A stretch of DNA of 54,177 bases, taken from Candidatus Sumerlaeota bacterium (GTDB taxonomy: Bacteria; Sumerlaeota; Sumerlaeia; JAFGJS01). The notes under the pieces are model-generated. The model searched no databases and was not told the DNA's origin. It worked only from the letters and a program-made list of their open reading frames with translations. Numbering within the stretch: the first letter of the stretch is position 1; each line of letters begins with the position of its first letter. The position numbers and the translations under genes are program-made. The stretch covers positions 1-54,177 of the forward strand of contig JAFGJS010000111.1 of the NCBI GenBank assembly GCA_016928995.1, in the 5' to 3' direction. Below are positions 16,013 to 50,497 of this stretch, in pieces.

Positions 16013-16434
16013 GTTGAACGGCTCCATTGATCTCAGGGGATGTGACAATAAATTAAAACGCCGGAAATCATCGTGCAATCTTTATATTATCGAAGGCCAA
16101 AGAGAAACATCGGCTTTCAAAAGCACATTCGATGTCAATCGGGATCAACATCGGGATCGTAATCGTCATTGTTGTTGTTTTTCGATAGCGATTCCGATCC
16201 CGATCGCGATTTCGATATGGCAATCGTGACTTTAGAAAGTTCCTGCAAAGAGAAAAAGGCGTTGCATTGAATCGCGCCAAACGAAATGATGTTTCTTCCT
16301 GCTTGACTCAATCAACCGGCCGCAAGCGGCGATAGTTTTAGCGGGCGCCCCGTCGCGTTTTTTTGCTTGAATCGAAACAAAGCGGAGCCGAAGCTTGAAG
16401 CGGGATGATCAAAAATGGATTGGAACAGCGCCGG
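16013..16434. other. Intergenic region between tyrA and the YjbQ gene
   Basis: About 420 bases without a convincing gene between the divergent tyrA and YjbQ genes. It contains the six-base-periodic inverted repeat at 16129-16230 (separate entry). Promoters for both neighbours must lie here, but I cannot fix them. Confidence 0.5.
16129..16230. repeat. Six-base-periodic degenerate inverted repeat, copy 1
   Basis: The left arm (about 16130-16174) repeats units such as ATCGGG, ATCAAC, ATCGGG, ATCGTA, ATCGTC; the right arm (about 16182-16230) repeats GATAGC, GATTCC, GATCCC, GATCGC, GATTTC, GATATG. The arms are roughly complementary, so the whole can fold as a long imperfect hairpin around GTTGTTGTTTTT. 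Two related loci lie at 18860-18934 and 29545-29672. Confidence 0.75.
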
Positions 16435-18813: not shown

Positions 18814-18859
18814 GTACTTTGAGTTGCTCTTACTCTGTTAAAAACTTTGGGAAATCACA

Positions 18860-18934
18860 CTCGTTCTCGTCCTCGTTCTCGAAAATAAGCTTCAAAGGGA
18901 CGCGATCACGATCAAAACGAGTACGAACGCGAAC
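18860..18934. repeat. Six-base-periodic degenerate inverted repeat, copy 2
   Basis: The left arm (18860-18881) consists of CTCGTT, CTCGTC, CTCGTT, CTCG; the right arm (18901-18934) contains GATCAC, GATCAA, AACGAG, TACGAA, CGCGAA. The arms are partly complementary, with a six-base period. It sits in the 133-base gap between the aldo/keto reductase and the beta-helix gene. Confidence 0.7.
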
Positions 18935-18952
18935 CTGTCTAAAGGTGTGTTG

Positions 18953-26884: not shown

Positions 26885-29419
26885 TTAGTCTCCCGCCTTC
26901 GCCGGGCGGATCAGCAGGATTTCGCTGATGTTGAGGCTGGCGCCGAGTTCGGCGAGATCCTGGGCGCGCTGCCGCAGGACGCTGTCGCGCGAATCGACCC
27001 AAAGCCGCCACGCGGAACGGCGCTCCTCAAGCAGCATGAGCAGCCGGTCCTGCAACGGGATCAGATCGATTTTCACCTTGCGGCCCCGCGCCCATTGCAA
27101 CGTGGCAGCGATCTCCGGAATCGCGGAGTCGAATTCCCGCGCCTCCATGCGATCCATCGCCTGTTGCAGTTTCACGTTCAGTTGCTTGCGCATCAACGGC
27201 TCAGGCGCCTCCAGCCCCCAGTGCTCAATTTCCGCCAGAATGCGCTCCGCGTCATCGAAGCCTTGCGCCGGGCGCGTCTGGATCAACGCGTCCTCCAGGC
27301 GTTGCTCCAGCACCAGCCGCGCGGCCATCTTGAATTCCGGCGGCAACTCGCTGTTCGTCTGGCGCAGCTCCTCCATCAACGGATTATAGTTCTCGAAGTT
27401 TTGACGGCAAAACTCGAGCAAACCTTCCATCGATTTGCGCGCCACGCGCTCCATGAATTCGCGGAAGGCGTCGTGGAACAGCATCTTGGACGAGAAGAAA
27501 CTCGCGCCAAGCGGAATTTCGCGCAATGCGTCCGCGCTCTTCGCAGCGAAGGCGTCGCGCACCTTCACGCTGAATTCAGCGTAGCCCTCGCCCTCGCGTT
27601 CGGGCTGAACCAGGCATTTCATGTGTTCATCCGGACGCTGCAGCACGGCGAACGCGGCCTCGAGCTGATCAAAGGTGATCCGCGAAGTGATCGACAGCAG
27701 ACCGTGGCACAGCTGCAGCCCGTTGTTTTCGACGCGCTGGAATTCCTTCACAGCCACGTCATAACAATAGTAATCGTTCAGACCGGCGGAGCGAGGATCC
27801 GCCGGATCGGTCTGCGCCAGCCGCATGCCCACGTTCGCCGCAACTCGCCCAAGCTCCACCGTCTCCGGGCGAATATGATGATCGTAAATCTGGCAGCCGT
27901 CCCCTTCCTCGGACAGGTTGCTTTCGATGACATGCAGCGAACGATGAAACGCATCGACGAAATTGCCGCCGAGGGATTCGGCAAGCTGCAAGGCGCGCGC
28001 GGCGTACTTCAGGTTTTGCAGCGGCTCGAGACCAGTGACCTCATCGAAAAACCATCCGCAGCTTGTGAACATCAGCATGCGCTGCCGTTGCATTTCCAGC
28101 AGCCGCAACGCCATGTTGATTGCATCGCCGTCGTCTGCGCTTTCCCGAACCGGAAAATCCTGCAGGAACGCTTCGCGCGCGGGCGCATCCCGGTCGAGCA
28201 CGAGACGGATGTATCCTTCTCGCGCGGCCCAGGGATCGTTCCAAAGCGCGCCAGCCCGCTTTTCATAGAATGCGTCCAGCGTGTCGCGCAACGCATCCAG
28301 CGAGTCGCGCAGACCCTTGCGCCACTTTTGATTCCATTTCGCCGGAGAGCCGCCGCTGTTGCAGCCGCAATTTTCCTTCCAGCGCCCCACGCCATGCGAA
28401 CAGGACCAGGCCGAGGGTTCGAACAGCTGCACCTCCATCACCGGCGGCTGCAAATCGAGAAAAGCGCCGTAATTGAGCAATTCGACGGTCTTATCGTTGC
28501 GCAGCGTGTCGATGGCGCGCGCCAGAGCCATGTCGCCGAACTGCCAGTGATGACCGTAAGATTCGCCGTCCGTGGCGATATGCGACAGTTCATGCCCCGC
28601 CGGTTTCGCCGAAAATCCGGCGGATTTCAACCGTTCGGCGAAGCGCACGCCGTCGTAAAGCAAGTCCTCGAACGCCACCGCGCGCGAAAGCGGGCCGTCG
28701 TAAAAGAACAGCGTGATCGTCTTGCCGTTCGGCAGACGGAAAAGATAAGGCTGCTTCGTGTCGATCTTCCCGCCGGATGCATCGGTCCAACCTTCATCCT
28801 CTCCCAGCGGCTTGGCGCCCGTTTTGCCCAGCGTCACGCTGCGTTCCTTCAACGGGCGAACGCGGCGCGCTTGATACGGCGACAGAACGGTGAAGCGGAT
28901 GCCTTCGGCGGCCAGCGCGGCGAGCGATTCCGTGTCCGCGGCTGTCTCGGGCAGCCACATCCCCTCCGGCTTCCGTCCGTAATGATACTGAAAGTCGGCG
29001 ATGCCCCATCGCGTCTGCGTGGCCTTGTCGCGCGCGCTGGCCAGCGGCATGATCATGTGATTGTAGCATTGCGCGATCGCATTGCCATGACCGCCCAGAC
29101 GCTCGGAACTCGCCTGGTCCGCCTCGATGATCGCCTCATATGTCGGCCGGTCGTTTTCACGGATCCAGTTCAACAGCGTCGGGCCGATGTTGAAACTGAT
29201 ATGCTCGTAATTGTTTTGCAGCGACAGGATGCGCCCGTGCGAATCCAGAATGCGGCTGCGCGTATTGGGCGCGTAGCATTCGCGGTTCACGCGCTCGTTC
29301 CAATCATGGCTCGGCGCCGCGGACGGCTGTCGCTCCACGGCCTCCAGCCAGGGATTCTCACGCGGAGGCTGATAAAAATGTCCGTGGATGCAAACGCATC
29401 GCTTGAAGGTTGTGGCCAC
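26885..29419 (-). CDS. GH57-like glycoside hydrolase with DUF3536
   Basis: An 844-residue cytosolic protein. The N-terminal half is a glycoside hydrolase 57 / deacetylase-like barrel: HGHFYQPPREN at residues 12-22, then GRKPEGMWLPETA with the likely catalytic Glu158, and ATDGESYGHHWQFGD. The C-terminal half, from about residue 420, matches the DUF3536 domain that accompanies it in many phyla (SCGWFFDEVTGLEPLQNLKYA). The family is linked to alpha-glucan metabolism, but activity is not proven. The start is a GTG at 29419 with GAGG about 10 bases upstream. It is upstream of, and may be co-transcribed with, leuC. Confidence 0.9.
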   Translation of the reverse strand: MATTFKRCVCIHGHFYQPPRENPWLEAVERQPSAAPSHDWNERVNRECYAPNTRSRILDSHGRILSLQNNYEHISFNIGPTLLNWIRENDRPTYEAIIEADQASSERLGGHGNAIAQCYNHMIMPLASARDKATQTRWGIADFQYHYGRKPEGMWLPETAADTESLAALAAEGIRFTVLSPYQARRVRPLKERSVTLGKTGAKPLGEDEGWTDASGGKIDTKQPYLFRLPNGKTITLFFYDGPLSRAVAFEDLLYDGVRFAERLKSAGFSAKPAGHELSHIATDGESYGHHWQFGDMALARAIDTLRNDKTVELLNYGAFLDLQPPVMEVQLFEPSAWSCSHGVGRWKENCGCNSGGSPAKWNQKWRKGLRDSLDALRDTLDAFYEKRAGALWNDPWAAREGYIRLVLDRDAPAREAFLQDFPVRESADDGDAINMALRLLEMQRQRMLMFTSCGWFFDEVTGLEPLQNLKYAARALQLAESLGGNFVDAFHRSLHVIESNLSEEGDGCQIYDHHIRPETVELGRVAANVGMRLAQTDPADPRSAGLNDYYCYDVAVKEFQRVENNGLQLCHGLLSITSRITFDQLEAAFAVLQRPDEHMKCLVQPEREGEGYAEFSVKVRDAFAAKSADALREIPLGASFFSSKMLFHDAFREFMERVARKSMEGLLEFCRQNFENYNPLMEELRQTNSELPPEFKMAARLVLEQRLEDALIQTRPAQGFDDAERILAEIEHWGLEAPEPLMRKQLNVKLQQAMDRMEAREFDSAIPEIAATLQWARGRKVKIDLIPLQDRLLMLLEERRSAWRLWVDSRDSVLRQRAQDLAELGASLNISEILLIRPAKAGD

Positions 29420-29544
29420 GCTGGCGCCGCCTCACAGAGAATGGTTGATCAATCTGGCAATATCGGGCACTTTAATGGCGTGGTCTTTCAATTGCAAAAG
29501 GAAAAAAAACTTGTCAGCACGATTCTTCCAGCGGGAAAATCAGG

Positions 29545-29672
29545 TCATCATGATCTTAATCATCATCCTAATCTTAATCATCATCGCAATCCATTGATTG
29601 CATCGCACGAGGCAATGGAATAAAGAGTACGATTAGGATTAAGAATAAGATTAAGAGCAAGATCAGGATTGG
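29545..29672. repeat. Six-base-periodic degenerate inverted repeat, copy 3
   Basis: The left arm (about 29545-29589) has units CATCAT, GATCTT, AATCAT, CATCCT, AATCTT, AATCAT, CATCGC; the right arm (about 29626-29672) has TACGAT, TAGGAT, TAAGAA, TAAGAT, TAAGAG, CAAGAT, CAGGAT. The arms are roughly complementary and enclose an inner perfect stem TCCATTG/CAATGGA. It fills most of the 259-base divergent gap between the GH57 and GerMN genes and must overlap their promoters. Confidence 0.78.
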
Positions 29673-29678
29673 CCAGGC

Positions 29679-30284
29679 ATGGATGTAGGGCATCAATATC
29701 ACACGGGCTTTCCAATTATCCGCTACATCGCCAGCGCGGTGGTGGTCTCGCTGCTGCTGATCATCCTGGGGTTGTATGGCTGGCGGCGCAGTTCGGCATG
29801 GCTGCGCGAGCGCGCCGCGCCGGAACAAACCGTCCAGCCGGGTCTGGATCAAGGTTCCGCCGCGCCCGCGGAGCGGGAAATCTATCTCTATCTCACTGCT
29901 GACGGTCGTTCGTTGCGCTTGCAGGCGATGCGGCCGTCATTGCCGCACGGCGACTATGCCGCGGCGCGATATATCATGCGGCAGCTGATCGACGGACCAT
30001 CGGAGGGCTACCTGCTGTCTCCCTGGCCGCGCGGCGCGGAGCTCAACGCCATCTTCTTCAAGGATCGCATGATCGTGATCGACCTGCCTGCGGAATCGGC
30101 GCGGCGCTTTCAGGGCGCGACCGAGACGCAGCTGGCGCTTTTCGCAGCGGTGAACAGCCTGCTGAACAATCTGGAGCGCTACGACAGCGTGCGGCTGCTG
30201 ATCGACGGCCGGCCGGCCGCGGCGCTGGGCGGCGATATCGACATCACCCAGCCCCTCCGCGCCGATCCGGCGCTGGTGATGTGA
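29679..30284 (+). CDS. GerMN-domain membrane-anchored protein
   Basis: A 201-residue protein with one N-terminal membrane anchor (IASAVVVSLLLIILGLYGW, about residues 16-34) and an exported GerMN domain. The domain is recognised by the pattern EIYLYLTADGRSL, YIMRQLIDGPSEGYLLSPWP, FKDRMIVIDLP and LALFAAVNSLLNNLERYDSV. GerMN domains occur in spore germination proteins but also widely in non-sporulating bacteria, where they sit in the periplasm and may bind cell wall. No spore gene is present here. It converges with the 258-residue membrane protein. Confidence 0.85.
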   Translation: MDVGHQYHTGFPIIRYIASAVVVSLLLIILGLYGWRRSSAWLRERAAPEQTVQPGLDQGSAAPAEREIYLYLTADGRSLRLQAMRPSLPHGDYAAARYIMRQLIDGPSEGYLLSPWPRGAELNAIFFKDRMIVIDLPAESARRFQGATETQLALFAAVNSLLNNLERYDSVRLLIDGRPAAALGGDIDITQPLRADPALVM

Positions 30285-30308: not shown

Positions 30309-30382
30309 GTAGGGTGGGCCTTGGCCCACCATCTTGTCATTTTTGAAGTATCGTGAGAATGGTGGGCCAAGGCCCACCCTAC
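30309..30382. repeat. Perfect 24-bp inverted repeat between convergent genes
   Basis: The left arm 30309-30332 starts GTAGGGTGGGCCTTGGCC and the right arm 30359-30382 is its exact complement, with a 26-base loop. It lies between two convergent genes and could end transcription from both sides. The arms also contain the internal palindrome GTGGGCCTTGGCCCAC. Confidence 0.88.
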
Positions 30383-32225: not shown

Positions 32226-32314
32226 CAATCCGTACCGCGACTGTGAAGAAGCGGCCCCGATGGCGCTGTGGCTATGCATTACGGGCCGCTCCCTGACGGT
32301 CGCGGTACGGATTG
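32226..32314. repeat. 32-base inverted repeat CAATCCGTACCGCGAC
   Basis: The left arm 32226-32257 and right arm 32283-32314 are complementary over 32 bases, with mismatches only in the middle. The outer 15-16 bases (CAATCCGTACCGCGAC) pair perfectly. The loop is 25 bases. It fills the gap between the FlhB-like gene (plus) and the EF-G gene (minus), again between convergent genes. Confidence 0.85.
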
Positions 32315-50423: not shown

Positions 50424-50493
50424 GGACAAACCGTTTGTCCCGGATTCAACTTCCAAGCGCCCCCGAGGGGGGCGCTTGGAAGTTGAATCCGGG
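50424..50493. repeat. Two overlapping hairpins, one with a perfect 26-bp stem
   Basis: GGACAAA/CCG/TTTGTCC (50424-50440) overlaps a second hairpin whose arms 50439-50464 and 50468-50493 are exact complements over 26 bp with a 3-base loop (GAG). The arms contain GGATTCAACTTCCAAGCGCC. It is the longest perfect stem in the window. Confidence 0.88.
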
Positions 50494-50497
50494 AAAC

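Follow-up and report, generated by a model that had tools for sequence, protein, structure and literature searches.

For the periodic inverted repeat at 29547-29669 we propose a kinship with free-standing S23 elements: it would be a MITE-like relative that carries no gene, a reading to which we assign a probability of about two in three. The window, that is the whole stretch of DNA analysed, comprises positions 1 to 54,177 of contig JAFGJS010000111.1 of a Candidatus Sumerlaeota bacterium, whose genome is called G000 here (4.55 Mb, 161 contigs, 92% complete). The membership of the hairpin among the gene-less relatives of S23 elements is well supported, and such hairpins may have arisen from S23 elements by deletion. 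An earlier note, made from the sequence alone, described two arms of six-base units around an inner TCCATTG/CAATGGA stem at 29545-29672, and these parts lie where it placed them. Table 1 lists them with the two other elements of the window.

Table 1. Periodic hairpins of the window and the genes flanking the 29545 hairpin.
Feature	Positions	Strand	Description
Left arm, 29545 hairpin	29547..29591	+	8 ATCNNN units: ATCATG ATCTTA ATCATC ATCCTA ATCTTA ATCATC ATCGCA ATC
Right arm, 29545 hairpin	29625..29669	-	7 inverted units (GAG/GAT NNN); ends 9 bp before the Germane-domain gene start
Central perfect stem and loop	29590..29619	.	TCCATTG (29590-29596) / CAATGGA (29613-29619)
Flanking gene, glycosyl hydrolase 57 / DUF3536 protein (GH57)	26885..29419	-	Context only
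Flanking gene, Germane-domain protein	29679..30284	+	Context only
Second gene-less hexamer hairpin	16138..16216	.	ATCGNN vocabulary; arms 16138-16164 and 16184-16216
Third element	18860..18933	.	CTCGTT left arm 18860-18881; degraded right arm ~18904-18933

The 6-bp period, the orientation and the ATCYTA and CTCGTT vocabularies of the window hairpins are common to two S23 elements of G000 outside the window. At C63:4299-4766 a broken S23 ORF is enclosed by ATCCTA arms, which have the vocabulary of the left arm at 29547-29591, and at C43:13716-14240 an intact S23 ORF is enclosed by CTCGTT arms, the vocabulary of the 18860 element. The window hairpins themselves contain neither an S23 ORF nor a remnant of one (PF05635/TIGR02436) and are thus not full S23 or IVS-type elements. 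When the arms and interiors of gene-less hairpins were searched by HMM, no S23 remnant was detected (best E 0.8), in loops whose shortness weakens the search. An rRNA intervening sequence is not what we see either, since the window hairpin is intergenic and the window has no rRNA. Of the marks of a MITE, dispersed similar copies with common outer ends were found in the CTCTTG families of G000, intergenic position in the arm pairs listed, and presence or absence between relatives in an ATCG hairpin of other genomes.

In RNA folding, 29530-29690 folds better than its shuffles (z = -3.4) and 16110-16240 more strongly still (z = -5.6), while 18820-18950, with its clean left arm of CTCGTT units and degenerate right arm, does no better than shuffles (z = +0.2). 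The low predicted folding energy at two of the three window loci is what a transcription terminator or a stable RNA hairpin serving the neighbouring genes would lead one to expect. This explanation has hardly any credibility in our judgment: the genes at the window hairpin are divergent, so that it is not an intrinsic terminator with a GC stem and T run at gene 3' ends, a convergent-gene setting occurs in 5 of 30 arm pairs of G000, the two arms of one hairpin show no special match to each other, and a tRNA is the sole Rfam match in the whole window. The window holds three of the four vocabularies of the genome. Two further inverted repeats were observed in the window: a perfect 27-bp repeat with a 3-base loop at 50438-50494, which has a gene for a Lon substrate-binding domain on one side and a TldD-type gene on the other and whose end motif has one further occurrence in the sample (L074), and an imperfect 32-bp repeat at 32226-32314, where two overlapping ORF calls end.

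The gene-less relatives form a class in G000, as the earlier note had anticipated for the window hairpin, and the genome scan came out far above chance. About 1.5 of the 4.55 Mb was analysed, some parts of it picked for pattern hits. A scan for perfect or ungapped inverted repeats missed most loci, and lag-period scans were found suited instead. The pattern ATC(NNNATC)x4 has 75 matches in G000 and the reversed pattern has none. In a lag scan of 444 kb, drawn from contigs already bearing hits, period 6 was the strongest with 17 regions, against 0 in Markov sequence; period 7 had 6 regions. Arms with at least 7 MTC units number 24 in 1.5 Mb, compared with 0 in 7.5 Mb of Markov shuffles. The same 1.5 Mb yielded 30 convergent arm pairs of period 6, 6 of period 7, 3 of period 8 and 1 of period 9, with 0 in the shuffles. 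In close arm pairs the MTC units pointed inward in 36 cases and outward in 3. Every arm pair listed is intergenic by gene prediction. Four vocabularies were distinguished (ATCGNN, CTCGTN, CTCTTG, and ATCYTA), so that period and convergent arm orientation are what the class has in common and unit sequence is variable, just as the note had read it from three loci. Four copies of a CTCTTG hairpin have outer flanks of ~70 bp in common, with the inverted sequences TTCTCACCAC / GTGGTGAGAA at their ends, and the members of a longer family have a common interior. An element of ~220 bp, made up of a hexamer CTCTTG hairpin within conserved outer flanks with inverted ends CCCGCATTTCTCACCAC / GTGGTGAGAAGACCGGG, has four copies (L053:5243-5470, L083, L091, L071) and is a clean MITE-like family.

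The note had further held that the repeat fills a divergent promoter region. This is correct at the 29545 locus, where the GH57/DUF3536 gene runs leftward and the Germane-domain gene rightward, and it fails as a general rule: the genes flanking 30 pairs are divergent in 11 cases, in the same direction in 14 and convergent in 5, close to the background of other long intergenic gaps (137 divergent, 326 same-direction, and 54 convergent). Since the orientations resemble this background, the hairpins are neither a promoter nor a terminator feature, and the promoter-feature idea was dropped. The same counts bear on the proposal that the arrays are binding sites of a host regulator, as put forward for the Geobacter heptanucleotide elements and the Beggiatoaceae TAACTGA repeats. 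Published readings of similar arrays (PMC2700814, PMC4679880) and the position of the window right arm directly before a start codon speak for such sites; with no promoter preference in the flanking genes, presence or absence between congeners and the tight linkage to S23 we hold them to be improbable. The suggestion that the paired arms reflect selection on shape or pairing was not sustained for gene-less hairpins: in G000 the similarity between a hairpin's own arms does not exceed that of arms swapped between loci that have one vocabulary in common (p = 0.27 and 0.14 by permutation), and arm covariation inside them was rejected on this result. What gene-less hairpins have in common is vocabulary and orientation, with no matched stem.

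Such arrays also flank S23 genes. G000 contains 9 matches to PF05635 (S23, the 23S rRNA intervening-sequence protein); apart from the elements at C63 and C43, most of these genes have arrays with units of 7-9 bp on either side. Against our reading, ATCG arms were seen at none of the S23 genes of this genome, which is 92% complete. We then sampled 145 S23 loci from the window's class, other phyla and hairpin-bearing named genomes. Arrays of the same period stand on both sides of the gene at 90 of them (period 7 at 60, 6 at 20, 8 at 8, and 9 at 2), and, as a further point against the reading, ~38% of S23 loci have no clear arms at the thresholds applied. Same-period arrays on both sides occur at 86 of 138 S23 loci, compared with 4 of 564 positions 800-900 bp away within these loci (Fisher p = 6e-68), and arrays flank 32 of 49 S23 genes on both sides, compared with 0 of 140 small genes of G000. 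When S23 loci were picked solely by similarity between one flank and the reverse complement of the other, the best lag was 6-9 in 95 out of 102. The two arms of an S23 locus also mirror each other in unit order beyond their common vocabulary (0.73 vs. 0.51 at 12 ATCG loci, p < 2e-4). This mirroring is confined to S23-bearing loci, unlike the gene-less hairpins, as if the S23-bearing copies were younger or maintained. The S23 protein of the 6-bp clade matches PF05635, TIGR02436 and PDB 2gsc (five chains), and the solved relative is described as a homopentameric ring (PMC4990558). Median units per arm are 5.6, 4.9, and 4.6 at periods 6, 7, and 8, with a constant arm length of 34-37 bp; these numbers do not discriminate the idea of one unit per S23 subunit (pentamer, ~5 units).

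Period and S23 clade go together: one clade has units of 6 bp, most have 7 and others 8-9. In a tree of 135 S23 domains, built from 119 alignment columns outside which the arms lie, a single branch (SH-aLRT 98) has on the same side of it all 19 of the proteins whose arms are of 6 bp period. The 6-bp trait needs 1 change on this tree against a shuffled mean of 17.6, a value as low being reached in 0 of 500 shuffles, and for the three period groups the number is 8 changes, compared with 27.9. The finer forks of the tree are unsure because the alignment is short. By record names, the 6-bp clade includes Desulfobacterales, Ca. Thiosymbion, Thiorhodococcus, Planctomycetota, Kiritimatiellota B12222, Desulfobacter latus and others, and it also spans records named Desulfobacterota, Chromatiaceae and Kiritimatiellota. 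Within this clade ATCG(GG/CT/AA) arms occupy one subclade and CTCGTN/ATCGTA arms lie mostly outside it, as judged by eye. The earlier note was right that decay of one repeat does not explain the vocabularies, which follow S23 protein subclades. What a specialist would find surprising is the general result that the ends are periodic and that their period tracks the clade of the S23 protein, and this clade-specific period is a testable handle on the binding target of S23 and on which sequences move.

A purely local origin, in which replication slippage and template switching yield periodic palindromes with no mobile element, appears very improbable to us, even with the unit-order mirroring between arms at S23 loci, the degeneracy of the arrays and the variation of repeat number between Coxiella strains (PMC4990558) in its favour. 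Vocabularies recurring across phyla, a period tied to a protein clade and dispersed copies with common outer flanks all run against it. The note had considered slippage peculiar to this lineage; simple slippage leaves unexplained both the period following the protein clade and the coming and going of arms and gene together, and at least six phyla carry the hairpins. Slippage probably edits the number of units after an element has arrived.

A search for ATCGNNATCGNNATCG-N10-40-CGATNNCGATNNCGAT gave at least 120 stretches across other genomes; among the matches listed are Desulfobacterota, Chromatiaceae, Kiritimatiellota/Verrucomicrobia/Lentisphaerae, Planctomycetota, Thermoanaerobaculales, Chitinispirillaceae and others, with 1 or 2 that look like chance matches in coding DNA (for example L114). 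The unit vocabularies recur across phyla. The pattern has 0 matches in IMG/VR, which gives no sign of viral carriage there. PF05635 is present in 27 of 28 genomes picked for ATCG hairpins and in 20 of 40 genomes outside the window's class (p = 3e-5, kinship uncorrected). Genome G089, with many ATCG hairpins and no PF05635 match, is an exception, and one of the 28 genomes is a further one. It also counts against our reading that, for the majority of ATCG hairpins of other genomes, the 8 kb examined contained no S23.

Comparison of congeners indicates that arms and S23 gene form one unit, present or absent together between relatives. At one site G009 has an S23 element of 500 bp whose arms are of the AGGGATG type, where its congener G016 has a 29-bp unrelated spacer between flanks that are 85-88% identical. 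A gene-less ATCG hairpin of G089 is likewise missing at the orthologous site of its congener G101. The same spacer (L277:5100-5240, L396-L401) holds the 6-bp hairpin in G089, a hairpin of ~8-bp period in G100, no array in G101 and a single short array (7-ish) in G102; it is a hot spot of element turnover. Such single-site comparisons do not separate gain from loss, and in both sets of congeners the intergenic flanks are too diverged for fixing the ends of the elements or a target-site duplication. These data also bear on the main competitor of our reading, according to which periodic hairpins are independent targets, S23 elements insert into their loops, and gene-less hairpins are empty targets and not derivatives. 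The rRNA intervening sequences do replace small loops of pre-existing helices (PMC4990558), hexamer hairpins without S23 far outnumber those with it, and G089 carries hairpins without S23. Empty targets nonetheless seem unlikely to us, as at the G009/G016 site arms and gene are both absent, and the match of period and clade across phyla would need strict target specificity.

Extragenic palindromes in many copies also bring to mind REP/BIME-type palindromes moved by a RAYT (Y1) transposase. RAYT genes are found in 6 of 6 hairpin-rich genomes tested, including G089, which has no S23, so that RAYT could act in trans. Inverted flanks were seen at 17 of 22 RAYT loci and periodic arrays at 0 of 22, and the REP-like palindrome that the window does contain, at 30309, stands apart from the hairpins and has no periodicity; we therefore see very little chance of this origin, and RAYT/REP as the source of the periodic arms was rejected on the 0/22 count. 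The palindrome at 30309-30382 is a perfect 24-bp inverted repeat, GTAGGGTGGGCCTTGGCCCACCAT, which recurs elsewhere in G000, also near one RAYT gene (L454), and looks like a REP element.

Returning to the reading as relatives of S23 elements, we propose the following mechanism. A full element is ~0.5 kb long: two arrays of 30-40 bp, built of 6-9 bp units and inverse to each other, enclose an S23 ORF of ~120-160 codons. The S23 protein (a ring of four-helix bundles in a solved relative) may bind the tandem units, on DNA or on folded RNA, and its binding would tag the element so that an enzyme acting in trans moves or maintains it. Copies that lack the gene, that of the window included, would need S23 and further factors provided in trans and presumably spread because they have kept the arms. 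More broadly, S23 proteins may read arrays with a protein-specific period (a "period code"), the arrays may be the ends of widespread, undescribed foldback-like bacterial elements, with PF13366 carrying inverted arms of 8-10 bp units, and most members in such genomes may be gene-less passengers; we see the odds for this wider proposal as evenly balanced. On the side of PF13366, GxxExxY/PDDEXK_3 genes were observed with inverted arms on both sides; the units are 8-10 bp long, for example CACAGAGGA, CACGAAGG, and ACGCAAAG, and the arms were found at 13 of 19 loci at SW >= 36 (L409 = G000:C156:6423-6858 (L045), L402-L431). In PF13366 we thus have another protein family besides S23, whose arms are of a style of their own.

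Bacterial genomes commonly encode S23 or "four helix bundle" proteins, and the link made here may explain many degenerate 6-9 bp intergenic arrays that are annotated as regulatory sites. Foldback transposons have long inverted ends of internal tandem repeats. In PMC3573991, Galileo is described with long inverted ends built from internal tandem repeats as well. Those are eukaryotic elements with unrelated proteins and hosts, and the units here are 6-9 bp. Bacterial REP/RAYT elements and MITEs resemble the present hairpins in being short, extragenic, many-copy, palindromic and non-coding, and REP/RAYT differ in that the gene linked here is S23 and not a transposase, RAYT genes having no periodic arms (0/22). 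The heptamer arrays of Geobacter (PMC2700814) and Beggiatoaceae (PMC4679880) were interpreted as regulator sites with no S23 link made; by their published description they resemble ours as tandem arrays of degenerate units between genes, some of those in Geobacter forming inverted pairs. These published heptanucleotide arrays (GGACCGG, MTYCTGA, and TAACTGA; Geobacter metallireducens, Beggiatoaceae) may be S23-type arms or gene-less relatives. Among open-access papers, to which our searches were confined, we came across none that connects S23 in general with periodic arms. A close known system is the rRNA intervening sequence with an S23p ORF (Coxiella, Leptospira; PF05635, TIGR02436), which has the same protein family and an ORF inside inverted arms. 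That of Coxiella has tandem heptamers (GACAGAT) in strain-variable number beside the S23 ORF, inverted ends and a 28-bp terminal stem, and both the function of the protein and the origin of the rRNA intervening sequence are described as unclear (PMC4990558). Unlike it, the elements described here are intergenic, their arms are long degenerate arrays of a clade-specific period, and many of their copies are gene-less.
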